NCBI GenBank assembly: GCA_027486585.1 | Contig: JAIXOU010000134.1 | Location: forward strand, 62,001-126,000 | Length of the DNA stretch: 64,000 bases | Direction of reading: 5' to 3' | From: Verrucomicrobiaceae bacterium | GTDB taxonomy: Bacteria > Verrucomicrobiota > Verrucomicrobiia > Verrucomicrobiales > Verrucomicrobiaceae | Shown here: piece after piece, positions 12,140 to 28,081 of the stretch | Layout of the letters: every line of letters begins with the position of its first letter | How positions within the stretch are numbered: position 1 is the first letter of the stretch | Position numbers and translations under genes: made by a program | The notes under the pieces: generated by a model | What the model saw: the letters and a program-made list of their open reading frames with translations, nothing else | What the model was told of the DNA's origin: nothing | The model's database searches: none

Positions 12140-13186
12140 TCATTCTTCTTCGACTGGCACAGCTTTAGGTGCAACGATTTCTTTCAAATCAATCTGTTGC
12201 CGACCGTCAATAACGCCGCACTCTTTCACTATTTCCTCCCAGAGGTAGGAACGGTTGAGCATGGAAGCCAGAAATTTATCATGACGTGGGAGCTTGGCGG
12301 TCTTGGCCAAATTCTCGGGATGGGTAAGTCTGCTGAAGAGCACCCTCTTGGCCTTCGTGCGCGGGATCTTCTTCTCTCCGAATCCATGAGGAATGTTGGA
12401 CGACCAGAAGTGGATCATCTCCTCACCGTTCTCGATGCTACATCCCAGATAAATCACGGAGTGGCCGGACTCCTTTGCACCAATCTCCATGTTCCACCAG
12501 ATCTTCATGAAGTCGCCAGGAAGCGCGCGATCTAAGCTCGAAAAATTCATGCCCGCTTGCAAATCATGAAAAAACTTCGCCGTGCCTGGACCATTGGCGT
12601 TCCAGCGTCCCCAGAGTCCGTCGCCATCAGACTTTGCCGTTTCAGAATAACCTTTCCATGCCTCGGGAGTCAATGCAAGTTTCCTTTCCTCTGACAGAGT
12701 TTGCAGAGTCTTCAGCAGCACTAGGTAAGTCGCCCCAGAACAAAAGGAAGGAATGCACTTCTTGGGTGTTACGAGAAATTGATCAACCTTAGGGTCATAG
12801 GAGATCGCCTGAGCCAGTGCGTTGAGTGCTTTTCGTGAAACACTGTATCCGCCCGCCTTTGGAAACTCCGAGAGAGTGGACAGAATGATGCTATTAATTT
12901 CCGGAACGGGCTGAGCGGCAAGCTCAACATCTCGAACCTCGACAGCCTTCGGCACTGCCAAGTCAGGGGGAAGAAGCGGTGGTGCAACGGCATTTAAGCC
13001 GGGTTTGAGAGTGTCTGGCTCGGATTTAAAAGAAGGTGCATCGTTAGCTGAGTCCGAATTGGAATTGGCTGCAGTGCCCTTGTTTGTATTAACTTGCTTG
13101 GATTTGGTAGAAGGGCCACACTGGGAGTTGGCGGCTAGCAGGAAGCAAAACAAAATGCCGTGACTGAAGGAAATACGTGAGATCAT
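12140..13186 (-). CDS. Secreted NlpC/P60- or CHAP-like Cys-hydrolase candidate
   Basis: A 348-residue exported protein: signal peptide (about 1-22), an Asn/Ser/Thr/Pro-rich linker to about residue 95, then a single domain. The domain order suggests a papain-like cysteine amidase or peptidase: KKCIPSFCSGATYLVLLKTL supplies the candidate Cys at a helix start, ALPGDFMKIWWN precedes the barrel, and ESGHSVIYLGCS supplies the candidate His. This matches the NlpC/P60/CHAP layout, but the assignment is inference. It starts 6 bases after the caspase-like gene at 13193, so the two are one transcript, and a peptidoglycan role would suit the cluster. Confidence 0.55.
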   Translation of the reverse strand: MISRISFSHGILFCFLLAANSQCGPSTKSKQVNTNKGTAANSNSDSANDAPSFKSEPDTLKPGLNAVAPPLLPPDLAVPKAVEVRDVELAAQPVPEINSIILSTLSEFPKAGGYSVSRKALNALAQAISYDPKVDQFLVTPKKCIPSFCSGATYLVLLKTLQTLSEERKLALTPEAWKGYSETAKSDGDGLWGRWNANGPGTAKFFHDLQAGMNFSSLDRALPGDFMKIWWNMEIGAKESGHSVIYLGCSIENGEEMIHFWSSNIPHGFGEKKIPRTKAKRVLFSRLTHPENLAKTAKLPRHDKFLASMLNRSYLWEEIVKECGVIDGRQQIDLKEIVAPKAVPVEEE

Positions 13187-13192
13187 AATGGT

Positions 13193-15010
13193 TTATCTTC
13201 TGACAACTTGCTCGTCAAAACTAATGATGCGGAGGCCTGCGCCTGTGGGCCGTAGAGTCATGGAGACTGAACATCCTCCACTGGTTGATGTGCCATAGTA
13301 ATAACGATACGTGATAGATAGAGAGATTAAACCACTTTTCAGCCGATCGAAGTTTGCGTTCGTGATCTCGTATTTTCGACTGGGGTAGCGGTCAATCAGC
13401 TTCGTTCGATCGGCTCGGAGATAGGAGTGAGTCGCAGCACCTCCCTCCTTGTAACAGTATGTAACAGAGGTATCGAAATCCGACACCCAGTCGTCAGGAT
13501 CATTGCTACTGTTGTTCCTGACCCATCCCATGACAAACTGGCGGACCATTTCATCACTCACGGTTACGCCATCCTGGGCTGGCTCGGGCATCGGCATGGA
13601 TGTAATATCGGAGTTATCTCTGGGCGCATAGACGTTTTTCCGGACTTCCTCGTCGAACGAGGAAATCTTCCACAGGCCGGAGGCCTGGCTGAGCTGCATC
13701 GTCACAAACGAGTTACCACGCGTAATTTTGGTGCCCTGGTATTCGTAGTGGTAGCTAATGACCAAGATGGCCCGGCTGAAGTTGTCAAACCACTCCACAG
13801 CCGCCTTGCCAAGCTGGGAATACTGGCGCGAAGGATAGCGACGAGTGAGCTTGCCACGATCTTCATGTAAGAAAGAGTTGGGAGCGCCACCGATGCCCTC
13901 CCAATAGACATACTTGGGAGATTCAGTAAAATCGGAAACCCAATCTACCACCGAGTTGCTGGCTTGATTTTTAAACCAGCCGGAAATGAATTCACTCAGG
14001 CTAGACTCAGCCTCCCGCTGGCGATTATCAGGCTTCTGGTCCTTCACATGAACCACGGGCTTATGCCCCTCATCGCGCACGATGGCTATCTCTTCCTTCA
14101 TTCGCTTAATTTCCTCCTTCATGCTCTCTAGGTCTTGCTTATCAATCTCCACCAGATTCGCGGGGCGAGCCGATGTGCCGCCTTCCGATGTGCCGCGTGA
14201 ACGAAACACGATCGACTGTATGGCGCTAGCTGCACCAGTGTAGCTGACAAAGGGCATTTGACGCTTTCCAGTGCGCGTTTCGGTGGTCTGCGCGGCGGCC
14301 TCCACAAGGTCGCGCAGATTTCCTGTGCCGGTGGCGAGCTCGTCGGTGAGAAACTTGGTGAAGGGGCTGTTTTCATCTGACTCACTGAGGAAAGCCGCTG
14401 CCTTCCTCCCCGGACTCGCGGCAAAGGCCACGAGGGTCGCATCTGGGACGACGGCCTTACCCAGAGCGGCCTTCACGCGCTCGTCCAGATCGCCAAAATT
14501 CTTTGTCGCTCCTGCCAGCGCCGCAGTGGCTTTTGGGGCCCCACTTCGGCAGCAGTCCAAGATTACTGCACGAGCCGTCACTGTGGTGTTTTTCAGCGTG
14601 GTCAGCACGCTAGTGAGAGACACGGCACGTGTGTCTAGATAGTTGACATCTGGAATGATGGCGTCCACTGGCAAAAGAAAAGTGTCCTCGCTGGCGAAGC
14701 CGTCAGGCTGGCCGTCCATGCCATGACCGGAATAGAAAACGAGCGCCAGCTTCGCCCCCCGGGCACGGACTTTCAGCTCATTTAGCGCAATCTGGATGTC
14801 CTCGCGCGTCGCATCCGTCAGCAGCTTCACATCCGCACCACTAGGCAGAGCCTCCAGAGTCGCTTTCATGAGTTGTGCATCGTTTACAGGCGTGTCCAGT
14901 TGGTCCTCCACACGCTGGTAGGCATTGTTGCCAATGCAAAGGGCGACGATCTCCGCGGCCCGCAGCATGCTACCGATACAGAGAAGGAGGTAGATGATGA
15001 TTGATCTCAT
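13193..15010 (-). CDS. Secreted caspase-like protein with two NTF2-like repeats
   Basis: A 605-residue exported protein. Signal peptide about 1-19, then a caspase-like C14 domain (about 20-265) with the catalytic dyad His96 (FYSGHGMD) and Cys154 (ILDCCRSG). A coiled-coil-like Glu/Lys segment follows (about 285-315). The C-terminus holds two related repeats (about 330-455 and 485-605), each with WVSDF, a Tyr-rich core, a KLxxRYPSRxY motif and a closing IISFDE/ISSFDE, as in duplicated NTF2/SnoaL-like folds. The caspase part is nearly the same as in the protein at 24571-26691, so they are recent paralogues with exchanged tails. It leads a transcript with the gene at 12140. Confidence 0.8.
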   Translation of the reverse strand: MRSIIIYLLLCIGSMLRAAEIVALCIGNNAYQRVEDQLDTPVNDAQLMKATLEALPSGADVKLLTDATREDIQIALNELKVRARGAKLALVFYSGHGMDGQPDGFASEDTFLLPVDAIIPDVNYLDTRAVSLTSVLTTLKNTTVTARAVILDCCRSGAPKATAALAGATKNFGDLDERVKAALGKAVVPDATLVAFAASPGRKAAAFLSESDENSPFTKFLTDELATGTGNLRDLVEAAAQTTETRTGKRQMPFVSYTGAASAIQSIVFRSRGTSEGGTSARPANLVEIDKQDLESMKEEIKRMKEEIAIVRDEGHKPVVHVKDQKPDNRQREAESSLSEFISGWFKNQASNSVVDWVSDFTESPKYVYWEGIGGAPNSFLHEDRGKLTRRYPSRQYSQLGKAAVEWFDNFSRAILVISYHYEYQGTKITRGNSFVTMQLSQASGLWKISSFDEEVRKNVYAPRDNSDITSMPMPEPAQDGVTVSDEMVRQFVMGWVRNNSSNDPDDWVSDFDTSVTYCYKEGGAATHSYLRADRTKLIDRYPSRKYEITNANFDRLKSGLISLSITYRYYYGTSTSGGCSVSMTLRPTGAGLRIISFDEQVVRR

Positions 15011-15326: not shown

Positions 15327-17678
15327 TCACGGTCCCACCGTAAAAACGGCCCGTGCACTGAAGGTTGGGGCACTGAGCAGACCTCTGGCTTTGCCGGTGG
15401 CGTCCTGAGTCTCCACGGTCAGGCCCTTGGTGCCACGTTTGCTGGCGGTGCGCAGATCGGTCTCGGCGAAGCTTTTGAAGACCTCGCCTTGGGCAAAGCT
15501 AAGATTTTCTGTGTCGGTGAATTGCACCGGACTGGCCACGGCCAGAATGATCTCAGTGCCGAAGGGTTCCTTCATGCGGAAGCGGAACTCTCCGGCCCCC
15601 AGTTGGCTGTCCATCTGACTGCCAATCTCCACGGCCTCACCGCCTTTGATGAAGTTGTTCGTGCGGGCGCTATTGGGGAAAATCTGGGTCAACACTTTTT
15701 CGGCGCTAAGGTGATAGAGGCGCAGGTAGATGCCTTCCGTGCTCTTTACCTTCACGGTCAGTAGCTCGCCCTTCTTGTAGTGGGCCTTGTTGGTGGCGAT
15801 TGTCAGCCTGCCGCCTTCAGTCAGAGTCACCTTGCCTTCGCTGCCGCCTGCCTTGGCGGCGCCGCTGGTGAACTCGGTGTAGGCGATTGGCTGGTAGGTG
15901 AGCTGCTCCTGGTTCAGGGCGTGGGCGATGACCTGAAACTGGTCCAGCCATCCAGCACGCGGAAAGGGCATGCCGGACTCGAACTGAACGGCGATGCTTT
16001 CCAGATCGGCATTCCGACTGTCTTTGAGGCGGTCCAGGAAACGGGCGTCTTCCTCGCCGAATTCAGCGGCCAGTGTCTCCAGCTTCACATCCGCCTTAAA
16101 ACGATTGTAAAGGCGGCTGACGGGATCAATCGGCTGCGAGTAGCCGGGCATGGCGGCGGCTAGGGCTTTTTTGAAGCGGTCCTCGTCCACTTTCACCACA
16201 CTATGCAGCTTCTCCTGGCTGACATAGAGGTCCTTTACGTTGTTGGCCTCGGCGCGGTCCAGACCAGCTTTGAGAGCAATTTCGCCTACTTCGTCGCGGA
16301 ACTGCTCGATAGGTTTGTCGAGGGTGTATTTCATGCCCTGGTCATGACAGGCCATGCAGGATATACCGTTGATGATGGCACCGTCCCGGCGTTTGCGATC
16401 CTGCACGATTTCCGTGGGGGCACGGTCCAGCTTCACGCCTGCTGCTGTGCTCAGATAGTAGGCTTGCAGGCCGTTGCGCAGGTTCCAGATGATCTCGCCA
16501 CCATCGTGGGCGAATTCACGATCCGCGTTCGGTGTGAGTCCTGCACCTACGGGTCCCAGCGGACTTCGGAAGAGATCATGCTGACCATTGCGGACGAGCG
16601 GGGTGAAGTCATAGCTCTTCCAGTAAGCGCCGGGGTAGCGGCCCAGTTCATGGCGCTCAATCATTCGGTTGCCCTGGCTCACACCGCTTTCACGGAAACC
16701 GGCGCGGATGGCACGACGATTTTGCAGGTTGTGGATCACATCCACGCCTAGTTCTTTTTCCAGATCACGGTCATTATCCGGCAGTCGCAGCAGTTGGTTG
16801 TAAAGCGGCGGCTGACTGGCGGCAAAGGCGAACCAATCCGCCCGCACCCAGGCCGACTGACTATGCGTGGCCTCGGTGATGTCGCGTTCGCTTTTCCCGT
16901 CCACCCCACGCAGTGCATAAGGGTAGCCGGCAACCACATATTTCTCCCATTCCTCCTGCGTCCATCCGTAATCGCGAAGATCGAAACGGAAGATCGTCTT
17001 TCCCGCATCCACCGCCACTGGCACGGTGATTTGGCCCTCATGGCTAAGGCTGTTGAGCAACTTGCCCAGTGCGGCGCGGTAGGTGTCCATCTGCGCTTCG
17101 TCTTCTACCGGCTTGCCGCTGGCATCGCGCAGGTTAGCTAGATTCGTCAGCGTCAGGTAACGCACAAAGGGCTGAGTGGACTCCGCCTGTTTTTCCAAAT
17201 CTTCAGCGATAAGGCGGATCTCCTTCCGCAAAGGGACAAAGGTTCTTGGTTCTTGGTTCTTCGTTTTTGGTTCGGTGTTCGCCGTGGGTGCTAGTGCGCT
17301 ATCTTCCTTGGGTTTTGGCTCCTCTTTGGCCGTGGCAGCTGGGGCGGGTTTTGCCTCACCCTTTGCCCAGCCTTTAAGCAACGCGATCTCCTCCGCTGTA
17401 AGAGGCGGCAGGTAGCTAGGATCACCGGGCTTACCCTTGCTCTTCGGCATGCGTCCCTTCGTCTCATCCGCGCGCTCGACGCGATCCATGATGCTTTTCA
17501 CATCATCCTCACTCCCTAGCAGGGAGGTTAGGTTGATCCCGGCAGTGAGCGTGGGTGTTTCATCGCCGTCGCTATGGCAGTCGGAGCATTTTTGGTCAAA
17601 GAGCTTGAGCACAGCGGCGTTGTCTGCGGCGTGGAGGGCGCTGGAGGCGATGAGAAGAGGTAGGAGCAGTATTTTCAT
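15327..17678 (-). CDS. Exported c-type cytochrome-like protein with DUF4384-like domain
   Basis: A 783-residue exported protein. I start it at the ATG at 17678, which gives a clean signal peptide (MKILLLPLLIASSALHA), rather than a TTG 18 bases upstream. A haem-binding CSDCHS lies at about residues 31-36, followed by the MPK...PPLTAEEIALLKGWA layout of planctomycete/verrucomicrobial cytochrome domains. A Lys/Pro/Ala linker follows. The middle has a second CMACHD motif at about residue 435. The C-terminus has a DUF4384-like beta domain (AHYKKGELLTVKVKSTEGIYLRLYHL ... IFPNSARTNNFIKGGEAVEIG). It follows the caspase/SUMF1-like gene at 17755 by 76 bp. Confidence 0.75.
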   Translation of the reverse strand: MKILLLPLLIASSALHAADNAAVLKLFDQKCSDCHSDGDETPTLTAGINLTSLLGSEDDVKSIMDRVERADETKGRMPKSKGKPGDPSYLPPLTAEEIALLKGWAKGEAKPAPAATAKEEPKPKEDSALAPTANTEPKTKNQEPRTFVPLRKEIRLIAEDLEKQAESTQPFVRYLTLTNLANLRDASGKPVEDEAQMDTYRAALGKLLNSLSHEGQITVPVAVDAGKTIFRFDLRDYGWTQEEWEKYVVAGYPYALRGVDGKSERDITEATHSQSAWVRADWFAFAASQPPLYNQLLRLPDNDRDLEKELGVDVIHNLQNRRAIRAGFRESGVSQGNRMIERHELGRYPGAYWKSYDFTPLVRNGQHDLFRSPLGPVGAGLTPNADREFAHDGGEIIWNLRNGLQAYYLSTAAGVKLDRAPTEIVQDRKRRDGAIINGISCMACHDQGMKYTLDKPIEQFRDEVGEIALKAGLDRAEANNVKDLYVSQEKLHSVVKVDEDRFKKALAAAMPGYSQPIDPVSRLYNRFKADVKLETLAAEFGEEDARFLDRLKDSRNADLESIAVQFESGMPFPRAGWLDQFQVIAHALNQEQLTYQPIAYTEFTSGAAKAGGSEGKVTLTEGGRLTIATNKAHYKKGELLTVKVKSTEGIYLRLYHLSAEKVLTQIFPNSARTNNFIKGGEAVEIGSQMDSQLGAGEFRFRMKEPFGTEIILAVASPVQFTDTENLSFAQGEVFKSFAETDLRTASKRGTKGLTVETQDATGKARGLLSAPTFSARAVFTVGP

Positions 17679-17754
17679 GGTATTCAGGTGAGCCAATCGT
17701 TTGCTGTCGAGTTTCGATTGTGATCTTTCGCAAAAAATCCCGCCCCAGTGCGGG

Positions 17755-19470
17755 TTAAGGGTTGGATAGAACTAGGGCAGGGCGGAAGCCCAGGATGCTG
17801 AACCTGTCGCCCGAGCCTAATATTAAGCGGGAGTCGGAACGACAAGAGCCAGCATCACTGCCCCACGAGCCGCCGCGGCTCACATGGGTGTCGGTTCCCG
17901 TCAACGTCGAACTCCCATCCAATGTATGTGCACACCACTCCAACACATTCCCATGCATGTCATGCAATCCCCATACGTTTGATGTATATCTGCCCACTGC
18001 ACAGGTTTTATGGACATACGGCCCTTTAGTACTCGTGCCATACGGGTTAGTACCATCACAATTGGCCAGAGTGCCATTGAGCATACTGCCAAAGTGAAAC
18101 GGGCTCTCAGTCCCCGCCCGGCAGGCATACTCCCACTGCGCCTCGGTGGGCAGCGCCCACTTCCATCCCGCTGGCAGATGCGTCGCCGCTGCCGCCTTGG
18201 TGATGAAACTCTGCGCGTCCTCCCAACTGATCATTTCCACCGGCAGGTCATCCCCTTTGAATTCGCTGGGATTGCTGCCCATGAGGGCTTTCCACTGCGC
18301 CTGAGTGACCTCCGTCTGCGCCATCCAGAAGCCATTGCTGATTTGCACCTGCACCTGGTCTTCATCGTCTTGACGACCCACTTCGCTCTTCGGGCTGCCC
18401 ATCATAAAGCTGCCGGGCGGGCAGAAAGAGAACTGCATGAACACGCCTCCAGGCAGCTCAACCTGGATGGCCTTTTCCACCGCGCCTTGGTCCAGGATGC
18501 CACCACTGGTGGTAACTGACGGAGATGGTGGCGTGACTGACGGGGCAGTCATTTTAGCCGCCAGCTCCCGCGCCCGGCGCTCGATCTCTGCCTCGGTCAT
18601 TGCGGGCGTAGCCTGCGGGGTAGTGAGCTTCACTAGGCTGGAAGCTGGGATTGCAAAGTCGGTGATCAGAGAGGCATCTCCACGAAGCTCCACATGCGGC
18701 ACCTGACGCATTTCCGTGCGCTGCTTGGTGATGCGGCTGGCGGCGTTGACGATTGAAAAGAGGTCCCCGCCCTGGGTGCTCATCTGCTCCGAGATGAAGC
18801 GGGTAAAGGGGCTGTTCGTGTCCGACTCGGTCAAAAAGGCGGCAGCTTTTCGCCCTGGGCTGGCGGCGAAGGCGATAAGAGTGCCCTGTGGCAGAATGGC
18901 CCCACCCAGAGCCTTTTTCACGCTTTCATCCAGCGCGGAAAGGTTTTTTCCAGCGCGGGCCAGGGACTTCGTAGCACCTGGTGCGCCGCTGCGGCAACAA
19001 TCTAGGATCACGCCACGCGCGGCACCACGTGTGCCCTCCAGAGCATCCAGCACGGTTTTTAAAGGCACGGCCTTATCTGGGAGATCATCTGCGGAGTCGA
19101 TGACGGCATCCACTGGCAGGAGGAAGGTTTCGGCGCGATCATAACCCGTGGGCGTGTCTTCAATACCATGCCCTGAATAAAAGATGAGAGCCAGTTTAGC
19201 CCCTTCAGCACGCGCCTTGAACTGTCGCAGTGCTAGGGTGATCTGACTGCGCTTTGCGTCCTCCAACAAGACGATATCCGCTGCCTGCACACCTGGAACG
19301 GCACGGAGGGTCTGATGCATCAGGCGAGCGTCATTGACGGGTGTGTCCAGCACATCCTCAGGGGTGACATAGGCATTATTGCCGATGCACAGGGCCACGA
19401 TGTCCGCCGCAGCGAGCTGTCCTGCAAAACACAAGGAACAGGCGGAAAGTATCAGAAAGAAACGTTTCAT
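17755..19470 (-). CDS. Secreted caspase-like protein with C-terminal SUMF1/FGE-like domain
   Basis: A 571-residue exported protein. Signal peptide about 1-21; caspase-like domain about 22-275 with His101 (FYSGHGIE) and Cys159 (ILDCCRSG). A Pro/Ser/Thr linker leads to a SUMF1/formylglycine-generating-enzyme-like domain (about 340-571). That domain is marked by MVGSP-like FMMGSPKSE, TEVTQAQWKALMG, LPTEAQWEYACRAG, GLHDMHGNVLEWC, VSRGGSWGS and GFRPAL. The RGGSW region has a single Cys, not the Cys pair of true sulfatase-activating enzymes, so it is more likely a binding or lectin-like version of the fold. It lies 19 bp after the OmpA-like gene. Confidence 0.85.
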   Translation of the reverse strand: MKRFFLILSACSLCFAGQLAAADIVALCIGNNAYVTPEDVLDTPVNDARLMHQTLRAVPGVQAADIVLLEDAKRSQITLALRQFKARAEGAKLALIFYSGHGIEDTPTGYDRAETFLLPVDAVIDSADDLPDKAVPLKTVLDALEGTRGAARGVILDCCRSGAPGATKSLARAGKNLSALDESVKKALGGAILPQGTLIAFAASPGRKAAAFLTESDTNSPFTRFISEQMSTQGGDLFSIVNAASRITKQRTEMRQVPHVELRGDASLITDFAIPASSLVKLTTPQATPAMTEAEIERRARELAAKMTAPSVTPPSPSVTTSGGILDQGAVEKAIQVELPGGVFMQFSFCPPGSFMMGSPKSEVGRQDDEDQVQVQISNGFWMAQTEVTQAQWKALMGSNPSEFKGDDLPVEMISWEDAQSFITKAAAATHLPAGWKWALPTEAQWEYACRAGTESPFHFGSMLNGTLANCDGTNPYGTSTKGPYVHKTCAVGRYTSNVWGLHDMHGNVLEWCAHTLDGSSTLTGTDTHVSRGGSWGSDAGSCRSDSRLILGSGDRFSILGFRPALVLSNP

Positions 19471-19489
19471 GAGTGTAAAAAAAGCAGCG

Positions 19490-20104
19490 CTACTTCATGC
19501 GCACGATGAGCACACGTCGATCGAGTTGGCGCTGGGAGTCTGGGGCGGTCTCCGAAAATTGGGCGCAGGTCTCGCCAAGGCCGAGTGGAGTAAGTGCGGA
19601 ACTGGGAACTCCTTTGGCAGTGAGCACACCCAAGATGCTAGCGGCGCGCTGCCCACTGAGGGTTTGATTGGCCTCGGTATCTCCCTCGGCGCTAGTGTGA
19701 CCTTGAAGAATGAATCGAGCGTTTTCCTTCTGGATGAGATCGCTGAGGATGCCGGCCATCTGATCGGCATTTGTGCGGGAGGTCGCATCAAGTAGGGTGT
19801 CTGAGTTGACAATAAAAAGGATAGGCAAGGAGACAAACGGATGCTCCTCAGTCGAACCATCCTCGCGATGGATAATTTCCACCTCAACAGTGGCGGGCGC
19901 ACCTGTCTCGACAGCCAATCCTTTACCCGCACGGCGCTCGTAGCTGCGTTTGACGATTGGAGAGGTGCTTTTCACTGGATTACGAGGCGGCTTCGCAGAG
20001 AGTGCGGCACGGGCGGCTTCCACATCCAGCGGCTGGGCCTGCTGGGCCATGACGGGTAGGCTGAACAGGCCGACAAAAGCAAGGATGAGCCGAGTGAGTT
20101 TCAT
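19490..20104 (-). CDS. OmpA-like exported protein
   Basis: A 204-residue protein starting at the ATG at 20104 with signal peptide MKLTRLILAFVGLFSLPVMA. The first half is a linker and short beta region. The C-terminal OmpA-like peptidoglycan-binding domain (about 95-204) shows ILFIVNSDTLLD, FILQGHTSAEGD, LSGQRAASILGVL and QRQLDRRVLI. It should sit in the outer membrane or periplasm and bind peptidoglycan. It is the middle gene of the first small Cys-rich protein / OmpA / caspase module. Confidence 0.85.
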   Translation of the reverse strand: MKLTRLILAFVGLFSLPVMAQQAQPLDVEAARAALSAKPPRNPVKSTSPIVKRSYERRAGKGLAVETGAPATVEVEIIHREDGSTEEHPFVSLPILFIVNSDTLLDATSRTNADQMAGILSDLIQKENARFILQGHTSAEGDTEANQTLSGQRAASILGVLTAKGVPSSALTPLGLGETCAQFSETAPDSQRQLDRRVLIVRMK

Positions 20105-20472: not shown

Positions 20473-20574
20473 GGCGATGTATTTTGGAGGATTGTTCTGT
20501 GTTTGGGGTTCACGCATCAGCGTGTTCACAGAGGCCCATCGTCAGGGACTGAAGTTTGATTGTGAGAATGTGAA
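20473..20574 (-). promoter_or_regulatory. Conserved leader A with small hairpin
   Basis: This roughly 100-base region upstream of the small Cys-rich gene closely matches 24371-24473, including a hairpin CACGC-ATCA-GCGTG (20511-20524) and the string GAAGTTTGATTGTG. On the coding strand the hairpin lies between two GTGAAC/GTGAA repeats. Conservation of non-coding sequence between two paralogous loci argues for a promoter or leader function; which of these is not decidable here. Confidence 0.6.
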
Positions 20575-20580: not shown

Positions 20581-20757
20581 TCAGCATCGGGTGCTCCAGG
20601 CCTGTCGCAACCCCTCGGTGTTGGCTTCCTGGCTGAACTGATACCACGCGAAAATGGACGCCGCGAGCTGCCGTAAATCCCCTTCCTCACGAAGCTTTTG
20701 CCATCGTGCCTCAAAACGCCGTTTGGTGGCGTCAAGCATGCCCGTGGATGCCAACAT
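20581..20757 (-). CDS. Small ORF, 58 residues, function unknown
   Basis: The minus strand from the ATG at 20757 to a TGA at 20581 encodes a coherent, charged, helical 58-residue product (KRRFEARWQKLREEGDL, then QLAASIFAWYQFSQEANTEG). It has no signal peptide. The composition looks like real protein, possibly the C-terminal remnant of a larger gene, and I do not recognise it. It lies directly upstream of leader A. Confidence 0.35.
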   Translation of the reverse strand: MLASTGMLDATKRRFEARWQKLREEGDLRQLAASIFAWYQFSQEANTEGLRQAWSTRC

Positions 20758-21001: not shown

Positions 21002-21376
21002 TCATGCTTTTCGATCAAAGATTTGTGGTTTGCACGGCCACATGTAAAGCATTAGCTGGCCCTTTGCGATTTTGAAAACCGTACCTTGATGGAGACTAGT
21101 TCTCCACTTGCCGTTTCCAATGTATTCATAAGTGAAAGAAACTGGTTTCTCATCTTTATTCCATGAATGGAGTCCCGTGCCATTGTTTCGGAAGAGTAGA
21201 GTCGTCGAGTAAGTGGAGTATTTGCTATTCCACAAACCAACGATCGCTTTAGGCGATGGGTTGGTCTCCACATAAGGTTCGAGCAAGACTGCACGAGGGT
21301 CACCAGCACAGCCCGAGATGCAACAAGCCGTTATGGCGAAAATAAATAATTGGGTAAGTAATCGAAACTGTTTCAT
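21002..21376 (-). CDS. Small lipoprotein, paralogue 1
   Basis: A 124-residue lipoprotein with a lipobox ISGC (Cys23). The mature part contains NPSPKAIVGLWNS, a Ser/Thr/Tyr stretch, LLFRNNGTGLHSW and a small beta-rich remainder. It is paralogous to the next gene upstream (21440), which carries NPPSDGIVGMWHRD and CLYKKDGTAYFHC at matching places. The pattern resembles small lipocalin-like or META-like domains that begin 'G.W', but no firm family can be given. The region is more AT-rich than its neighbours. Confidence 0.6.
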   Translation of the reverse strand: MKQFRLLTQLFIFAITACCISGCAGDPRAVLLEPYVETNPSPKAIVGLWNSKYSTYSTTLLFRNNGTGLHSWNKDEKPVSFTYEYIGNGKWRTSLHQGTVFKIAKGQLMLYMWPCKPQIFDRKA

Positions 21377-21439: not shown

Positions 21440-21934
21440 TTAGTTTTTAAGACGCTTATAAAGGTATGAAAGGCCAGTACTATTATCGGTAATAATTAAA
21501 TGTTGCTCTGCCAACGATGCCTTTTTGGCCGACCATTTTTTATTGAACGAATCAATATAGAAAAGCTCCCACACGCCGCCACCTTGATAGTAATATTCGT
21601 AATTATGTACTTGATCATGATCAGTCCAAGGATCCAGAAAATCGTTATAATTCCCAATCTTACCGCAATGAAAGTAAGCAGTTCCATCTTTCTTGTATAA
21701 GCAAGTCGTTGTATAGGTGCCGGGATTGGTGGCATTATCTCGATGCCACATTCCAACGATCCCATCGGATGGTGGATTTTTGTTGATCTTAGCCTTTAAT
21801 ATTTCGGCACCAGGATCTGACATTGCTGTGACACAACTAGAAACTGCAATAAGTGCACATGTTCCTAGCATGAAACGAAAAATGAGAAGATAAGAAAAAT
21901 TATTTTTGAAAGTTGATCTGGTTTGATGATTCAT
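21440..21934 (-). CDS. Small lipoprotein, paralogue 2
   Basis: A 164-residue protein with an N-terminal hydrophobic segment and a lipobox VSSC. The mature part has NKNPPSDGIVGMWHRD, then CLYKKDGTAYFHCGK and a Tyr-rich EYYYQGGGVWELFYID strand. It is a diverged tandem paralogue of the gene at 21002. It follows the caspase-like gene at 21997 by 62 bp on the same strand, so it may be part of that transcript. Codon use is AT-richer than in the caspase genes. Confidence 0.6.
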   Translation of the reverse strand: MNHQTRSTFKNNFSYLLIFRFMLGTCALIAVSSCVTAMSDPGAEILKAKINKNPPSDGIVGMWHRDNATNPGTYTTTCLYKKDGTAYFHCGKIGNYNDFLDPWTDHDQVHNYEYYYQGGGVWELFYIDSFNKKWSAKKASLAEQHLIITDNSTGLSYLYKRLKN

Positions 21935-21996: not shown

Positions 21997-23445
21997 TCAG
22001 TTCGCCAATTCTTTCGCACGGCGTAAAAACTCATCGGGCGACATTTCGAATTGCTTTTCTGGAGAGGTCGTTGGCTTTGATGAGGTGCGCTCAGACTTCG
22101 TTTTCGTATCTCTCTTTGGTGCAGGAGCTTGAACAAGAGAACGCTTAACTTCAGGTTCGATCTCAGCGGATAAACCGACAAGATTCATTGAGAAAAGGGT
22201 GTCTGGACTCAATCGCCCCGTAACAGCCAAGCTCTTTTTATGCTGCCACTCAATGATAGCCTGCTGCGTTCCACGTCCAGGAAGGCCATCTGCAGAACCT
22301 TTATAATGGCCGGCCTGCAGAAGAATATTCTGTGCGCGACGCAGGATACGACTTTGACTGTAACTGTTGAAACTAACGTAGGCACTATCGGCAAAAAGAC
22401 CTTTTAAATCAAAATAGCCGATCTCTGGCAGATCCTCCATTTTTAGTGAAGTTGGGGGTGACTCAATCACCATAGCTGTATTGGCAGCTCGCTTGCGAAG
22501 TTCGTCCAATTCTGCCTTCATGCGGGCGACTTCGGAGGCATCCATCGCAGAAGCGTCGGCTAGGGGAGACCCCGATGGTCCTATGGTGCCAGCAGGTGCC
22601 GGCGTGGATCCGGTAGCTGCGGTGACAGCCCCCAGAGAAAAGCTGTCGGTCAAGCTGTGGTTCGTCCAAGAGACTTGATCGGCCCCAAGCTTGCCCTTCA
22701 CATCACGGAAAAAGAAATCGATGTCCTTGTTCGCACTGTTGGGAATGGCATCAAGCATAGCTGCGGTGAAGGGGCTGTTGCGTTGGCCGTTTCCATCGCT
22801 GGCGGTAGTGCCGGGACTGGTTGCGAAGGCGAGGTAGAAACCCGGACCGTATCCAGTGATCTCTCCAACCGATTTGGTCTTCACACTCTTGCCAATGCCG
22901 GACAGCGCGGCCTCTAGCTGCGCGGAGAAAGGATTGTCCCGGCAGCAGTCCAGGATAACCACCTTGGTCTTGGCCCCGGCCTCCTCTAGGCCGACCATGA
23001 TGCTGTCCCGTAGCAGCACGCCGCGATTCTTAAGCATGGACATGCCGGTGAGCTTTGGCGTGTCGGTAGGCAGGATGTAGTTGTCCTCCCCCACCTGCAC
23101 GCCGTGGCCAGAGTAGAAAAACACGGCGGCTTCTGCCCCTTTGGATTCCGCCGTGAACTTCTCCGTGGCTGTGGTGATGGCTTCACGGCTGGCATCCGTG
23201 AGCGCCTGCCCTGTAATGATGACATAACCCAAGGCCTTGAGCGCAGCGGCGACGTCGGTGGCATCTGCCACCGGGCTGGTAAGCTGCATCCGGTCCGGTA
23301 GTTCGCTGTAGCGGTTGTTGCCAATGACCAGCGCGACGCGCTGGGCGGCCATCAGCGGCACTGAAGAGTAGCTAATCGCAAGGATGAAGGCGAGGAGGCG
23401 GCCCGAGGGCCAAGCGGAGGGCTTGGATGGAGAGATGGATTTCAT
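21997..23445 (-). CDS. Secreted caspase-like protein with peptidoglycan-binding domain
   Basis: A 482-residue exported protein with a signal peptide (about 1-34). The caspase-like domain (about 35-270) has the dyad His114 (FYSGHGVQ) and Cys168 (ILDCCRDNPF). A short coiled-coil-like stretch follows (SEVARMKAELDELRKRA, about 303-320). A PG_binding_1-like domain (about 365-425) shows RRAQNILLQAGHYKGSADGLPGRGTQQAIIEWQ. The C-terminal tail is Lys/Ser/Thr-rich. This version is closer to bacterial YVIGN/DCCRDNPF caspases than the other three in the cluster. It is the third gene of the second module and starts 36 bases after the OmpA-like gene. Confidence 0.85.
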   Translation of the reverse strand: MKSISPSKPSAWPSGRLLAFILAISYSSVPLMAAQRVALVIGNNRYSELPDRMQLTSPVADATDVAAALKALGYVIITGQALTDASREAITTATEKFTAESKGAEAAVFFYSGHGVQVGEDNYILPTDTPKLTGMSMLKNRGVLLRDSIMVGLEEAGAKTKVVILDCCRDNPFSAQLEAALSGIGKSVKTKSVGEITGYGPGFYLAFATSPGTTASDGNGQRNSPFTAAMLDAIPNSANKDIDFFFRDVKGKLGADQVSWTNHSLTDSFSLGAVTAATGSTPAPAGTIGPSGSPLADASAMDASEVARMKAELDELRKRAANTAMVIESPPTSLKMEDLPEIGYFDLKGLFADSAYVSFNSYSQSRILRRAQNILLQAGHYKGSADGLPGRGTQQAIIEWQHKKSLAVTGRLSPDTLFSMNLVGLSAEIEPEVKRSLVQAPAPKRDTKTKSERTSSKPTTSPEKQFEMSPDEFLRRAKELAN

Positions 23446-23481: not shown

Positions 23482-24027
23482 TCAAAGTTTGCGGAAAATC
23501 TGCACCCGGCGGTTTTGGCTGCGCGCGGCTTCATCAGTGTTGGCGACGACGGGCTCGCTGGCGCCGAAGCCGATGACTTGGAGCCTTGCCGCAGGCACAC
23601 CGAGGCGGGTGAGAGCAGCCTGCACGGCAAGCGCACGATTTTGGGAGAGCGTGAGATTGTGCTGGTCACCGCCGAGATCGCAGGTGTGGCCCTCGATGAG
23701 GAAGTGCTCGGTGCCCGCCGCCGTCATGCCTTTGGCGATCTCGGCGAGCTGGGCAAAAGTGATGGCGCTGGTGAATTCAGCACTGTCTTTGTGAAACTGA
23801 ATGTTCACGAAGTTGCAGGCCGTATCGGCATCCACCTTCACCTCGACTGGCTGGGCGGCGGTGCCATTGACCTCCACCACAAGGCCCTTGCGCAGCTTTT
23901 CCACCGGCGCGGCCAGCGATTTAGTGCGCTTCCATTTCTTCGCCAGATCCACAGCAGGCACGACGGTGGGTTCCACGGCCAAAAGGCTGCTAACGCAAAT
24001 GAATAGAATAGAGCATAGCCTAGTCAT
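23482..24027 (-). CDS. OmpA-like exported protein
   Basis: A 181-residue exported protein starting at the ATG at 24027 (signal peptide MTRLCSILFICVSSLLAVE). The C-terminal OmpA-like domain (about 78-181) has INIQFHKDS-like VNIQFHKDSAEF, FLIEGHTCDLGG, LSQNRALAVQAAL and the canonical SQNRRVQI. Periplasmic peptidoglycan binding is expected. It is the middle gene of the second small Cys-rich protein / OmpA / caspase module; the counterpart is at 19490. Confidence 0.87.
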   Translation of the reverse strand: MTRLCSILFICVSSLLAVEPTVVPAVDLAKKWKRTKSLAAPVEKLRKGLVVEVNGTAAQPVEVKVDADTACNFVNIQFHKDSAEFTSAITFAQLAEIAKGMTAAGTEHFLIEGHTCDLGGDQHNLTLSQNRALAVQAALTRLGVPAARLQVIGFGASEPVVANTDEAARSQNRRVQIFRKL

Positions 24028-24130: not shown

Positions 24131-24370
24131 TCAGTCGCGGTAGGTCTTGGTGAAGGTGCTACTCCGGCCATTGCTATAAAAGCTGCGGTAGGTGACCACC
24201 CGCATTTCGTAGGCGTATCGGCGGCCACAGTGGTCCGTGGCCCAGTGGCATTCCGTGCGGCTGTGCAACACGCAGGTGTGGGTGATGTAGGGACGGCAGT
24301 AGTCTGCCTTGGCAGACGGAGTGGCGGTGACGGTAATAAGGGCGAGGGAGAGAATGGCGATGGTTTTCAT
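24131..24370 (-). CDS. Small Cys-rich secreted protein B
   Basis: A 79-residue precursor with signal peptide MKTIAILSLALITVTATPSAKA and four Cys in the mature part (DYC, HTC, TEC, DHCG). It is a paralogue of the protein at 20200, with the same spacing of the last two Cys and the same C-terminal TK...R pattern. The start is the ATG at 24370. It lies 103 bp upstream of the OmpA-like gene on the same strand. Confidence 0.7.
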   Translation of the reverse strand: MKTIAILSLALITVTATPSAKADYCRPYITHTCVLHSRTECHWATDHCGRRYAYEMRVVTYRSFYSNGRSSTFTKTYRD

Positions 24371-24473
24371 GGCGATGTTTTTTGGATGCTTGTTTCTGTG
24401 TTTGGGTTTCACGCATCAGCGTGTTCACAGAGGCCTATCGCCAGGGGCCGAAGTTTGATTGTGGGAATGTGAA
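24371..24473 (-). promoter_or_regulatory. Conserved leader B with small hairpin
   Basis: This is the counterpart of 20473-20574: the same hairpin CACGC-ATCA-GCGTG (24410-24423), the same GTGTTCACAGAGGCC and the same GAAGTTTGATTGTG. The alignment runs from the start codon to about 100 bases upstream. Confidence 0.6.
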
Positions 24474-24570: not shown

Positions 24571-26691
24571 TTAATTCTTTAATCCCAACTGATTCAAAGT
24601 CTCATCGCTCAACTCTCCAGACGCCTCCAATCCTTGGGATTTTTGATAATTAATTAGAGCTTGCCGAGTGCCTTTACCCATCACGCCGTCTATTTCGCCA
24701 TCGTAGAATCCTGTAAAAGACAGAACGCGCTGAACTTTAAACAAAAGGCTTTCTTGATCTGCTACTGCTATAGAATTATTGCCTGATTTGTTTAAATTAT
24801 GACCTGCTGCGACTGTTGCGAGTTTGAAATTTTGAATAGCATCAGCTATTGCGATAGAAAGCGCTTCATCAAAAGTAGGCGAATGAATTAGCTTAGATTC
24901 ATTTTGATTCGATAGATAACCACCTCTGAAAATGAAGGCAGGGCAGTTGAGACCAGTTAAAACCGGATGTCGAGACCGACGTAAACCCAAGTCAACGAAT
25001 TTAAACCGTGAAATTACCATGGCATGAACTGCAGTTGCAAAGCCCACGTTACAAGCATCCCACTTGTTACCTGCACATTTCATATCTTCAACCGCCTCAT
25101 CATAGTCCGATGTAGCACCAAGAGGAGTTAGAGCTAGAGATTCGATCCCACTTTTTGTGCTATCGCCAGACTCCTGATAAGTCAGTCTGATATACACCGC
25201 AGGTGTTAATGAATTCGCGATTTGGATTCGCTTGGCTAAAGAAACATCTTCACCCTCGTGCCGCGTCAAAACTGCGTCAAAACCTCGCGCGCTTAATTGT
25301 CCTTTGATGGCAAGGGCCAGTTTCAAAGTAAGCTCATCATAACTTGCAGGTTCTCCATCTCCTCCGCCTGCAGGATCAATGATGACTCGTTTGAAGTCGG
25401 CACTTGGGTGAATGTAACTAGGGCGCAACACAGGATCAACCAACTTAGCCAAGTCCAATCTTGAAAGATAAGCCATTTTTTTCTTCTCAAGAATGGGCAA
25501 AGAAGTCGAAAAATTGATATTATTGATAACTATATCTTTTGTGCCTGCAGTTAGGTCAATAAAGACGTTGTTAGAAGCTAATCTGTGAACTTTGCCACCA
25601 ACACCCATACCCCTAAATCTATAGAATTTAAAAAGATCAAGCAAAGGAACATAGTCATAACCATTTATTAATTCGGCTTTCCATCCGTTGAAATTGCCTT
25701 CCTCAATGTCTTGCCAAGTCATTTCAGGTTTGGTCCGATCATAACTGGAGGTCGAAGCATCTTCAACCTTCGATGCATTTTGAGTCATGCCAGCCGCTAA
25801 CTCACTCGCCCCGTAATCGGTCTTAATTTGATCCATTGCTGGAGTTGCAATGTTAAGCGCCGCTGGGCTACTGCGGAAGGTAATTTGGCGAATGGCGCTA
25901 GCAGCACCGCTGTAGATGACATAGGGCACCTGGCGCTTGCCAGTGCGGGTCTCGGTGATCTCGGCGGCAGCCTCCACGAGGTCGCGCAGATTCCCCGAAC
26001 CAGTGGCGAGCTGTTCAGTAAGAAATTTGGTGAAGGGGCTGTTTTCATCGGACTCACTGAGGAAAGCTGCAGCCTTCCTCCCAGGACTGGCGGCAAAGGC
26101 GATAAGTGTGGCGTCTGGGACCACGGCCTTGCCCAAGGCGGCCTTCACACGCTCGTCGATGTCGCCAAAATTCTTGGTGCTGGCTGCTAGTGCGGCGGTG
26201 GCCTTCGGTGCGCCGCTGCGGCAGCAGTCCAGAAAAACGGCACGCGCGGTAACCGGCGTATTTTTCAAGGCGGTCAGGACGCTGCTAAGAGAAATGGCAC
26301 GGGTGTCCAGGTAGTTCACATCCGGGATGCTGGCATCCACGGGCAGCAAAAAGGTATCCTCACTCACATAACCGTCGGGCTGACCATCCATCCCATGACC
26401 TGAGTAAAAGACTAGCGCCAGCTTGGCCCCCTGGGCGCGGACTTTCAGTGCATTCAGAGCGATCTGGATGTCCTCTTTGGTAGCATCAATGAGCAGCTTC
26501 ACATCCGCTCCACCTGGCAGTGCTTCCAGGGTGCGCTTCATGAGATGAGCGTCATTCACCGGGGTATCTAATTTATCTTCTTCACGCTGGTATTCATTAT
26601 TCCCAATGACCAAGGCCACAATATCAGCCGCCATGATCTGGCCTGTAGAACACACTAGGTAAAGGAAAAAAAGACGAAGGAAAAACTTCAC
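24571..26691 (-). CDS. Secreted caspase-like protein with degenerate amidase and PG-binding domains
   Basis: A 706-residue exported protein. Signal peptide about 1-21; caspase-like domain about 22-272 with His99 (FYSGHGMD) and Cys157 (FLDCCRSG). Residues about 340-425 resemble a copper-amine-oxidase-N-like beta domain (YVPLLDLFKFY). Residues 434-623 have the layout of an N-acetylmuramoyl-L-alanine amidase (Amidase_3). The zinc site is mostly lost: the usual DPGHGG reads DPAGGG (439-444), and the SIHxN region reads YIRLT. A PG_binding_1-like domain closes the protein (648-704). It starts 2 bases after the anti-sigma-like gene, so it belongs to the sigma-factor operon. Confidence 0.85.
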   Translation of the reverse strand: MKFFLRLFFLYLVCSTGQIMAADIVALVIGNNEYQREEDKLDTPVNDAHLMKRTLEALPGGADVKLLIDATKEDIQIALNALKVRAQGAKLALVFYSGHGMDGQPDGYVSEDTFLLPVDASIPDVNYLDTRAISLSSVLTALKNTPVTARAVFLDCCRSGAPKATAALAASTKNFGDIDERVKAALGKAVVPDATLIAFAASPGRKAAAFLSESDENSPFTKFLTEQLATGSGNLRDLVEAAAEITETRTGKRQVPYVIYSGAASAIRQITFRSSPAALNIATPAMDQIKTDYGASELAAGMTQNASKVEDASTSSYDRTKPEMTWQDIEEGNFNGWKAELINGYDYVPLLDLFKFYRFRGMGVGGKVHRLASNNVFIDLTAGTKDIVINNINFSTSLPILEKKKMAYLSRLDLAKLVDPVLRPSYIHPSADFKRVIIDPAGGGDGEPASYDELTLKLALAIKGQLSARGFDAVLTRHEGEDVSLAKRIQIANSLTPAVYIRLTYQESGDSTKSGIESLALTPLGATSDYDEAVEDMKCAGNKWDACNVGFATAVHAMVISRFKFVDLGLRRSRHPVLTGLNCPAFIFRGGYLSNQNESKLIHSPTFDEALSIAIADAIQNFKLATVAAGHNLNKSGNNSIAVADQESLLFKVQRVLSFTGFYDGEIDGVMGKGTRQALINYQKSQGLEASGELSDETLNQLGLKN

Positions 26692-26693
26692 AA

Positions 26694-27278
26694 TTAAGGT
26701 GCGGTTTTGACTTTAAAGGGAATAGGAACTCCGGCCATGCGCCCGGTATCTGCAAGACAGACGAGAACGCGGTAATCTGTGCCGGGCTGGAGGGTTGGAG
26801 TTGCTACTCCCTTTCCAGGCTTGAAGGAAATAAAATCGACAGGAGAGGTGACACGCTCAGCTTTAAACAAAGTGGGAGCAGCGACGGCGTCGCGGAAATC
26901 ACCCTCTTTTGGGAGAATCCAAACATCGTATTTCTGCCCAGGTTCGTCCTTACTGGTCCAAGCGATGGTCGGGCGGGTATCGGTGATCTCGTCGCCAGGA
27001 GAGGTGACGACGACGCGTGCGGTCGGCGTCGTGGTTGGAATGAGCAGCAAGGTGACTGCGGCCAATAGTGCAAGTACGGCAGCCAAGCGCATAAAGCCGG
27101 AATGCCTTACGACGAAGGATGAACGAAGTGTTCGCTGGTGGGCCTGAAGGGCTCTAATCCGTACCTCCTCCAGATCAAACAGGATACGATCCGGCACTTT
27201 CATGTCGCCAGTGAGCGGGCGCTCCTCAAAGGCACGAATCAGGTCGGCGTTTTCACGAAATGGGTCAGGCTCAGTCAT
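26694..27278 (-). CDS. Membrane partner of the ECF sigma factor (anti-sigma-like)
   Basis: A 194-residue single-pass membrane protein. A cytoplasmic N-terminus of about 60 residues precedes one transmembrane helix (about 62-81, MRLAAVLALLAAVTLLLIP). The outer part is a fibronectin-III-like beta domain (TRPTIAWTSKDEPGQKYDVWILP ... LQPGTDYRVLVCL). Its start overlaps the sigma factor stop by 4 bp (ATGA). That position and topology are those of an anti-sigma factor, but no zinc-finger HxxxCxxC motif is visible, so the role is inferred from context. Confidence 0.6.
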   Translation of the reverse strand: MTEPDPFRENADLIRAFEERPLTGDMKVPDRILFDLEEVRIRALQAHQRTLRSSFVVRHSGFMRLAAVLALLAAVTLLLIPTTTPTARVVVTSPGDEITDTRPTIAWTSKDEPGQKYDVWILPKEGDFRDAVAAPTLFKAERVTSPVDFISFKPGKGVATPTLQPGTDYRVLVCLADTGRMAGVPIPFKVKTAP

Positions 27279-27841
27279 GACAGATCTCCCTCCAGTCGGG
27301 TAAGTCGCTCCCGCAGGGTGCGAAGGCCTTTGGCAAAATAGGTAAGCAAGGTATTGCGGTTGATACCTCTGCGCTGAGCGATTTCATCGGTGCTCCAACC
27401 TTCGATAAAGCGATCGCGAAAGACCTGAGGCACCGGTGGGTCTGGCTGGAGGCAGTCCACCTCGGGCAGCAGCTCGTCCAAACGGAAGCGCTGATCAGGC
27501 GCAAAGTCCTGTGGTGCTTCTGGCAGCTCTTCCACAGCATCCTCTCGGCTCCTCTCACGTGAGCGGAAGAAGTCGGTGATGCGTTGGCGGACGATGTGGC
27601 GGGTCATGCTCAGGCAATCGTCCCAGGTGCTGATTTGATTGAAGCTTTCGCCTTTTTTCTCCACCAGCCCCCTGATGAGCTGCTGGATGGCGGTGCTGAC
27701 GAGGTCCTGCCGATCCTGCTCAAAGCGCTCCCCTGCCAGTCGCAATTTAGCGATCATCATGCCTGCCTCCCACAGAAGCGGATAGGCGGACGACCATGCA
27801 TGGCTGTCCCCTTGATTCAGGGCATGAATGTGAATGCTCAT
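27275..27841 (-). CDS. ECF-type RNA polymerase sigma factor
   Basis: A 188-residue sigma factor. The N-terminal half contains a region-2-like helix set (QDLVSTAIQQLIRGL ... SMTRHIVRQRITDFFRSRERSRED). The C-terminal region-4 helix-turn-helix is clear (VFRDRFIEGWSTDEIAQRRGINRNTLLTYFAKGLRTLRERL). It heads an operon with the membrane partner (4-bp overlap) and the caspase-amidase gene (2-bp gap), and it probably controls them and perhaps the modules further downstream. Confidence 0.8.
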   Translation of the reverse strand: MSIHIHALNQGDSHAWSSAYPLLWEAGMMIAKLRLAGERFEQDRQDLVSTAIQQLIRGLVEKKGESFNQISTWDDCLSMTRHIVRQRITDFFRSRERSREDAVEELPEAPQDFAPDQRFRLDELLPEVDCLQPDPPVPQVFRDRFIEGWSTDEIAQRRGINRNTLLTYFAKGLRTLRERLTRLEGDLS

Positions 27842-27937
27842 TCGGGATGGTAAAATGATTTACATGCCTAACATCCAGCGTGCCAACCCGCAAACATCGA
27901 TTTTTAGGTTTCTACGTATGGCAGACGCAAGCGTGTC

Positions 27938-28081
27938 TCAAGCACAAAACCCAATCCTCCTCCGCCTCTTGGCCTTTTCCTCCGAGTACACTGCCTTTGT
28001 AATCTCTCGCTCCAAGAAGGCCTGCGTGATCTGCCACGGCTCGGGGCTCGGGTCTTTGCTGCCCGCCTGAATCGCGTTCAT
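27938..28081 (-). CDS. Small basic protein, 47 residues
   Basis: The ATG at 28081 is preceded by a strong AAGGAG sequence with 6-base spacing and opens a 47-codon frame ending at 27938. The product has an EPWQITQAFLERE segment and a basic end (EEKAKRRRRIGF). It lies about 97 bp upstream of the sigma factor on the same strand, so it may be the first gene of that operon. The TQAF segment echoes the upstream frame at 28084-28266. I do not recognise the family. Confidence 0.5.
   Translation of the reverse strand: MNAIQAGSKDPSPEPWQITQAFLEREITKAVYSEEKAKRRRRIGFCA

Follow-up and report, generated by a model that had tools for sequence, protein, structure and literature searches.

The window analysed here, a stretch of 64,000 nucleotides of a Verrucomicrobiaceae bacterium (GCA_027486585.1, contig JAIXOU010000134.1; C147:62001-126000 of the 6.5-Mb genome in our numbering), carries on its minus strand a block of genes for exported caspase-like proteins headed by an extracytoplasmic function (ECF) sigma factor. 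Bacterial caspase relatives have mostly been discussed as internal enzymes of cell death or processing, whereas the conserved set described here looks exported; it appears to be tied to one sigma factor by a promoter-like motif and combines constant heads with swapped tails, one of them hypermutated in a relative. Counted from the sigma gene, the block comprises a membrane partner, a caspase with pseudo-amidase and PG_binding domains, Cys-rich gene 2, OmpA gene 2, a caspase with a PG_binding domain, two lipoprotein-like genes, Cys-rich gene 1, OmpA gene 1, a caspase with an FGE tail, a cytochrome-DUF4384 gene, a caspase with a duplicated tail and a doubtful last gene (Table 1). The triplet of Cys-rich, OmpA and caspase genes is present in two copies of identical order.

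Exported caspases and their neighbours

All four caspases of the window scored above the threshold of Peptidase_C14 (PF00656, cut-off 21.4 bits), with 103.3 bits for 13193-15010, 81.1 for 17755-19470, 99.1 for 21997-23445 and 106.7 for 24571-26691, and all four carry the motifs FYSGHG and LDCCR. A hydrophobic signal-like segment lies directly N-terminal to each catalytic domain, as called by a simple heuristic and visual reading rather than by SignalP; in 24571-26691 the heuristic peaked on the first catalytic strand, so the segment was judged by eye. These results confirm the claim of a first-pass annotation of this DNA that the block encodes four exported C14 proteins with an intact His/Cys dyad. 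Across eight loci, GHG and LDCCR were kept in 20 of 20 caspases with an N-terminal head, all of which start with a signal-like segment (heuristic, by eye); the first caspase of L044, as called, has no basic residue ahead of that segment, and a 21st caspase (L244), whose catalytic domain is C-terminal, was excluded from the comparison. Between the heads of the caspase-FGE proteins of the window and of its nearest relative, L043, 75 synonymous and 17 non-synonymous codon differences among 290 codons point to constraint on the head. Among solved structures, MALT1 paracaspases came closest to the head of 24571-26691 (best E 3e-7). MALT1 cleaves after basic residues and, as the nearest solved relative, suggests the same specificity for the cluster caspases. 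C14 genes as such occurred in 32 of 56 genomes, including the window genome, which has two further ones elsewhere, one of them weak. A lone C14 gene (E about 1e-35 to 1e-40) was present in 19 of 35 genomes of the genus group (L001 and most of L007-L026), and it clearly outscored the cluster caspases under the same model.

The sigma factor exceeded the cut-offs of TIGR02937 (45.4 against 42.9 bits) and PF07638, as expected of the ECF group, and alignments support the partner, so that the annotated pair at the head of the block is indeed present. The partner has cytoplasmic helices, one transmembrane segment and an outer beta domain (low-confidence model, pLDDT 60.7) and is a candidate anti-sigma factor. 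In Verrucomicrobium sp. BvORR106 (L070 4000-4991) it is split into two overlapping reading frames and in G460 it was called as two genes; a frameshift, a sequencing error or a true two-gene form could each account for this.

The OmpA-like, Cys-rich and haem-motif exported proteins annotated among the caspases were recovered as well, by PF00691 matches, alignments and two CxxCH motifs, respectively. The protein with the haem motifs reached 59.5 bits for DUF4384, its cytochrome models remaining below the Pfam cut-off. Its structural model gave no Foldseek match at E 0.001 in the first fold search; in a second one the C-terminal part was matched to a macroglobulin-type beta sandwich (Z 10.2 over 88 residues, rmsd 1.9). 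The wider family of its middle domain gave 373 confirmed matches, the best 80 of which (L063-L142) come mostly from Poribacteria and Planctomycetes, some genomes having several copies. Within these 80 loci, a caspase gene was called at 5 of 7 with a DUF4384 tail versus 4 of 73 others (L065, L068, L099 and L118, the first two cut by contig ends). L065 (CAMAZK010000098.1) is titled Akkermansia muciniphila and shares its gene order with a contig of G032, from the genus group of the window, so the label looks wrong. The NlpC-like label of the last gene (12140-13186) found no family support, since no Pfam family matched even at E 1, and the gene had no BLAST match in the loci L043-L045. The starts of OMPA1 and OMPA2 were moved to internal ATGs; genes in relatives were called with a home-made caller that placed some starts wrongly, and the start of the L240 Cys-rich gene was corrected by eye.

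Table 1. Features of the caspase block, in window coordinates, listed from the sigma gene onwards.
Feature	Position	Strand	Basis
ECF sigma factor (P0012)	27275..27841	-	PF07638 30.5 bits, cut-off 21.1; family homologues
AATC-N16-CGAT site within sigma coding sequence, possible internal promoter	27617..27640	-	motif scan
Single-span membrane partner, candidate anti-sigma	26694..27278	-	alignments; low-confidence model; 4-bp overlap with sigma
Exported caspase + pseudo-amidase + PG_binding_1 (P0010)	24571..26691	-	Pfam; motifs
AATC-N16-CGAT motif upstream of Cys-rich gene 2	24437..24460	-	motif scan
CYS2, small exported Cys-rich protein	24131..24370	-	alignment; relatives in other clusters
OMPA2, exported OmpA-domain protein	23482..24027	-	PF00691 67.2 bits
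Exported caspase + PG_binding_1	21997..23445	-	Pfam; motifs
LP2, small exported/lipoprotein-like protein	21440..21934	-	no Pfam family
LP1, small exported/lipoprotein-like protein	21002..21376	-	weak relatives near sigma in G460
Reverse transcriptase relic of a retroelement	20584..20739	-	52 aligned C-terminal residues, 77% identity to intact L043 reverse transcriptase
AATC-N16-CGAT motif upstream of Cys-rich gene 1	20538..20561	-	motif scan
CYS1, small exported Cys-rich protein	20200..20472	-	alignment
OMPA1, exported OmpA-domain protein	19490..20104	-	PF00691 47.5 bits
Exported caspase + FGE (C-type-lectin-like) tail	17755..19470	-	Pfam; head shares 97% identity with two differently tailed L043 caspases
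AATC-N16-CGAT motif upstream of cytochrome-DUF4384 gene	17696..17719	-	motif scan
Exported cytochrome-DUF4384 protein: N-terminal CxxCH c-type domain, second CxxCH, middle domain, DUF4384	15327..17678	-	
Exported caspase + duplicated domain (NTF2-like?)	13193..15010	-	Pfam head; internal duplication score
Exported protein, possible cysteine hydrolase, doubtful member	12140..13186	-	no Pfam match at E 1

Conservation of the block and a shared promoter-like motif

A search of 68 family genomes gave homologues of the sigma factor in 7 at E<=1e-60 and in 8 at E 1e-10; five of the seven strong homologues were rows of the query alignment, G237 and G460 being new. Among 387 evenly sampled genomes of the phylum, two matched at E 1e-12 (the window genome and G237). 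Hence, the cluster is patchy although the C14 family is common. Sigma factor, partner, caspases, OmpA and cytochrome proteins stand together in six of the seven genomes with a strong sigma homologue, namely in the window, L043, L044 (where the contig ends inside the cytochrome gene), L045, L070 of BvORR106 (where no Cys-rich gene was matched) and G237 (L240/L241); in G460 the sigma factor and its partner lie on a contig of 11 kb that contains neither caspase nor cytochrome. Homologues scattered without synteny, the pattern that would speak against a unit, were thus not what the neighbourhood comparison revealed, and the block is supported as a conserved unit rather than a chance row of genes. 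Similar sets without a strong sigma homologue nearby were found in L052 (cytochrome, caspase-FGE, OmpA), L244 and the loci of G043, where a distant sigma relative (25% identity) adjoins a Cys-rich gene. A different set occurs in another family at L046 (G053:C43), where two caspase genes whose tails are DUF4384-like form one row together with an OmpA gene and a small gene of DUF4384-like type; the window sigma factor had no match there.

The upstream regions displayed a two-part motif, CAATCAAA...GCGAT(T/G)GG, in which AATC and CGAT are separated by exactly 16 bases. The 64-kb window contains 7 matches versus 2.2 expected, and 5 lie inside the block, one being the palindromic partner of another. 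The motif was found at most 140 bases upstream of 11 of 50 cluster genes versus 6 of 268 others (Fisher p 3e-6, genes classed by eye), alternative spacers giving at most 3; five of those six other genes belong to G043 and are cytochrome, caspase or Cys-rich genes or exported genes next to them, and the Cys-rich site of G043 had already been seen at discovery. In a set of 1,332 distinct genes from 102 loci longer than 9 kb, the spacer of 16 bases preceded 26 genes and each other spacer from 8 to 24 only 1-6. The six clusters together hold 22 sites in 74,456 bases versus 5.4 expected from 1.59 Mb of other sequence (P 7e-8; 21 sites and P 3e-7 if one palindromic partner is dropped), five of the six clusters having been used for motif discovery. 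In the later genomes G237 and G283, which had no part in discovery, the motif precedes 4 of 22 cluster genes versus 1 of 59 others (p 0.018); the single exception is a second Cys-rich gene, and one corrected Cys-rich start gives 5 of 22 (p 0.005). Each of the five sites of the 20-kb L240 either lies inside the sigma gene or precedes a caspase, Cys-rich, cytochrome or OmpA gene. A strict form, CAATCNAAN12GCGATNGG, has three exact matches in 56 genomes, all in clusters, a partly circular result as the form was written after these sites had been seen; two of them are the only exact matches in the 8.7-Mb genome of BvORR106, both within its cluster.

In G043 and in all six sigma-bearing clusters, five of which had been used for discovery, the cytochrome gene is preceded by the motif. 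No motif was detected directly upstream of six cytochrome relatives that have no strong sigma homologue nearby (L052, L072, L066, L140, L244 and L068, the last cut before DUF4384), nor upstream of any of 72 relatives without detected DUF4384; the genomes of L052 (G019) and L072 (G005), searched as wholes, contain no sigma match. In L244 the cytochrome relative directly follows a motif-bearing Cys-rich gene. The motif also lies at the same place inside six of the seven strong sigma homologues, G460 lacking both the site and the SFNQ...D peptide. All six internal sites use the codons AAT, CAA and GAT, which is suggestive only, and the site may reflect the conserved peptide alone.

None of the four window caspases has the motif directly upstream; two are placed further along in rows that begin with a motif, one comes after the site inside the sigma gene, and 13193-15010 is linked to none. 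The annotated proposal that the sigma factor switches the block on is favoured by the shared motif and the conserved linkage, yet not by the regions directly upstream of the caspase genes themselves. As supported by our comparison, the motif ties much of the block together and fits ECF sigma control, with recognition by this sigma factor as the probable basis.

Several further sites deserve mention. The two Cys-rich promoters of the window (20495-20574 and 24394-24473) are 93% identical over 80 bases, and the Cys-rich promoter leader contains a short inverted repeat (ACGC...GCGT). L244 of G283 has four core sites in 19 kb, two of them upstream of Cys-rich genes; the second of these genes (18537-18767) shares 97% identity with the first across 300 bases, and two genes downstream of it a protein of 1,985 residues with Calx-beta/Ig domains (10446-16403) is encoded, possibly a further regulon member. 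L241 has two sites beyond its cluster, upstream of no gene. One-mismatch matches on C37 and C70 of the window genome fell below the weight-matrix threshold and were taken as chance, as was a fourth in-block one-mismatch match on the other strand (C147:83233).

Tail exchange and a retroelement

The tails annotated as SUMF1-like, PG-binding and degenerate amidase plus PG-binding were corroborated by Pfam (FGE-sulfatase 123.3 bits; PG_binding_1 40.6; Amidase_3 68.8 together with PG_binding_1 44.8). Activity of the P0010 tail as an N-acetylmuramoyl-L-alanine amidase was rejected: the metal-site motifs are lost (DPAGGG, YIRLTYQ and FIFRGG in place of what we take to be the canonical metal-binding His and catalytic Glu residues), as they largely are in the BvORR106 relative. 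The tail of 13193-15010 is internally duplicated (score 203, with shuffled sequences reaching at most 47), which agrees with the annotated pair of repeats; their NTF2-like label is unconfirmed, as no Pfam family matches this tail. Across clusters the tails comprise FGE lectin-like, PDZ, PG_binding and pseudo-amidase domains, the duplicated unknown domain and another unknown domain.

Comparison of heads and tails argues that tails have been exchanged on near-identical heads. The heads of the window caspase-FGE and of two L043 caspases are 97% identical, and their tails are unrelated (FGE; unknown; unknown plus PDZ). One of these L043 caspases occupies the same place in a collinear stretch whose neighbouring genes are 91-98% identical to the window, and the DNA identity falls from 80-98% to background at a breakpoint at about base 900. 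Likewise, the pseudo-amidase and duplicated-tail caspases of the window and one L043 caspase-FGE have heads 86-92% identical and unrelated tails, and in the converse case similar tails (51-64%) are carried by heads only 30-36% identical. A linker like TEAEIERRARELAA, present in 6 of 21 caspases and spread over different head classes, may be the crossover point. In L045, a 573-base identical tract lies inside the heads of two caspases with different tails; as most relatives are metagenome assemblies, this 573-bp tract could be an assembly effect. Over 11 proteins, head and FGE-tail similarity are weakly linked (r 0.24, permutation p 0.055), a result that falls short of proving independence. Stand-alone FGE genes occur in the G237 cluster (L240).

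In L043 a further source of tail variation was found. Downstream of a caspase-FGE gene (1839-3554) lies a reverse transcriptase gene (4429-5430; RVT_1 62.1 bits, E 8e-17), and 142 bases at the end of the caspase-FGE gene (3415-3556) are repeated at 3711-3852 with 84% identity. All 23 of the 23 differences fall at template adenines (18 to G and 5 to T, the template holding 29 adenines). L043 thus combines a variable repeat in the target, a template repeat, a reverse transcriptase and adenine-only changes, the full set of features of a diversity-generating retroelement (DGR), which appears to hypermutate one caspase tail in this nearest relative. The relic in the window adjoins the motif of Cys-rich gene 1, within a stretch 90% identical to L043, and this implies that an ancestor of the window, or a recombination partner, once had the retroelement. 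Among nine loci with reverse transcriptases or relics examined for adenine-biased repeats, such repeats were also found in FGE-tailed genes of three other retroelements of the order (L268, L269, L270). In L269 (G043:C35) and L270 (G049:C6) the changes in the best 120-base windows were adenine-only (22 of 22 for L269, 20 of 20 and 18 of 18 for L270), and the targets are large proteins whose FGE tails resemble that of the caspase-FGE; a caspase gene lies near L270.

Readings of the cluster and comparison with known systems

Taken together, the block may encode envelope-located, caspase-type proteases under sigma control with interchangeable recognition tails, a reading on which we are evenly balanced; its two building blocks, the regulon and the tail exchange, are probably both real. 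The membrane partner would retain the sigma factor until an envelope signal reaches the outer beta domain. The freed sigma factor would then transcribe from AATC-N16-CGAT sites before the Cys-rich/OmpA/caspase rows and the cytochrome-DUF4384 gene, as the motif positions suggest, and perhaps also from a start inside the sigma gene, yielding the partner and the first caspase. The proteases, whose catalytic motifs are intact, would be exported and would cut after basic residues like MALT1, and the tail would set what is bound: peptidoglycan in the case of PG_binding and pseudo-amidase tails, or a glycan or protein ligand in the case of FGE lectin-like, PDZ and other tails. Comparison shows tails swapped on near-identical heads and, in one relative, a tail hypermutated by a retroelement. 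As a constant effector joined to a fast-changing recognition part is a sign of conflict or surveillance, the likeliest use would be to recognise variable foreign surfaces at the cell envelope, whether of phage, predator or competitor, and then to act by proteolysis. Such a role in conflict is possible, at somewhat less than even chance. Its fullest form, an adaptive-like recognition of surfaces in which a dedicated, envelope-sensing sigma factor induces constant, exported paracaspases whose tails change rapidly by exchange and retroelement and which cut foreign surfaces outside the cytoplasm, is unlikely as it stands. The first-pass annotation had proposed an envelope proteolytic system acting on or anchored to peptidoglycan; envelope location is retained on the heuristic export calls, and peptidoglycan is not the common theme, the tails being diverse. 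It had also missed the tail exchange, the retroelement and its relic, and the motif.

A number of observations weigh against sigma-controlled surface recognition. The retroelement is intact in one cluster only; searches of the window block, L045 and L240 turned up no pair of template and variable repeats. The proteins scanned included no recognisable immunity, phage or secretion gene product. The motif was not found upstream of the sigma gene itself, which leaves autoregulation there unsupported; most cluster caspase genes lack it directly upstream, and of the six caspase genes in G043 only one is preceded by it; in that genome the sites at L053 and L054 score low on the full weight matrix. 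With one mismatch allowed (14-50 matches per genome in ten genomes) the counts for sigma-bearing genomes are no higher than those for sigma-less ones (G019, G018, G034), for which reason genome-wide enrichment at this stringency was rejected, and forward words exceed the reversed control in all ten. Moreover, PG-binding tails are equally compatible with housekeeping. In such an envelope-stress role, an ordinary ECF regulon would drive proteases that clear or mature the cell's own envelope and wall proteins, the tails being merely anchors. The OmpA, PG_binding and pseudo-amidase domains suit it, and an ECF sigma factor with a membrane partner is a common layout of envelope-stress systems; yet strong sigma homologues are confined to a small minority of family genomes, and one would expect proteases in housekeeping to retain their tails rather than have them swapped between near-identical heads and, in a relative, hypermutated. 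We regard this explanation as fairly unlikely.

The motif might also belong to another regulator, with the sigma factor and partner as mere neighbours and their co-regulation with the block illusory. The lack of a site before the sigma gene and the poor specificity of the relaxed motif are in line with this, as is G283, where the motif precedes two Cys-rich genes and the only sigma-like gene found lies elsewhere and is interrupted. However, a two-part motif with a fixed 16-base spacer is what ECF promoters look like, the cytochrome motif accompanies every sigma-bearing cluster and is missing in the sigma-less genomes of L052 and L072, and the motif recurs inside nearly all sigma genes, which together leave this explanation improbable. 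Delivery of the exported caspases to neighbour cells in competition, as a polymorphic effector system, has a similarly slight probability. The constant N-terminus, the swapped C-terminus and the stand-alone FGE genes of L240 recall polymorphic toxins, and fratricide by extracellular metacaspases is speculated upon in the excerpts of PMC3501461. In polymorphic toxins, however, the swapped C-terminus is the toxin, whereas here the enzyme is the constant part, the recognisable tails are of binding type, and neither an immunity nor a delivery gene was recognised among the proteins scanned.

Among described systems, the closest in layout are the EACC1 and EACC2 caspase conflict systems, in which, according to excerpts of PMC7159879 and PMC8195603, a constant caspase is joined to highly variable C-terminal domains; EACC2 neighbourhoods often contain an ECF sigma gene (PMC8195603). 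The window resembles EACC2 in these three respects. Unlike EACC as described in those excerpts, the window set looks exported, has OmpA, Cys-rich and cytochrome-DUF4384 partners and shares a promoter-like motif. All four window caspases reached only 59.4-65.9 bits for EACC1 (NCBIfam NF047832, cut-off 140 bits). Judged by its described features, EACC2 does not fit either: Pfam scans gave no DUF1822, and the caspase matches start at residue 22-36, right behind the signal-like segment, which leaves no room for the EACC2 N-terminal alpha+beta domain. PADLOC models returned only a generic caspase match and MotB-type matches on the OmpA proteins. Craspase of type III-E CRISPR pairs a caspase-like protease with an RpoE-like sigma factor and is intracellular and RNA-guided. 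The window sigma factor scored 19.8 bits versus the cut-off of 100 for the Craspase sigma family.

In the excerpts of PMC10907252, the FGE/CLec targets of DGR conflict systems are connected with STAND, MoxR or CHAT-type proteins. The L043 tail, alone among the clusters, shares with them an FGE-type target hypermutated at template adenines, the window keeping just the relic; its target differs in being an exported caspase in a sigma-linked cluster. The excerpts of PMC3501461 and PMC8283722 report metacaspases and orthocaspases joined to FGE, PG-binding, amidase or DUF4384 domains, in some cases with a likely signal peptide, and at most three metacaspases per operon; the amidase there is Amidase_2, whereas the window tail is a degenerate Amidase_3, and those excerpts describe no sigma-linked multi-caspase cluster with exchanged tails. 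The annotated remark that no described system of this make-up was known fits the set as a whole, since no description of the sigma-linked set, the motif or the tail exchange was found in the open-access literature searched (partial coverage). It does not extend to single architectures such as caspase plus FGE, which the excerpts of PMC3501461 already contain; relative to that literature, the assembly, the motif and the tail exchange appear new. The set is also carried by BvORR106, a strain that may be at hand.

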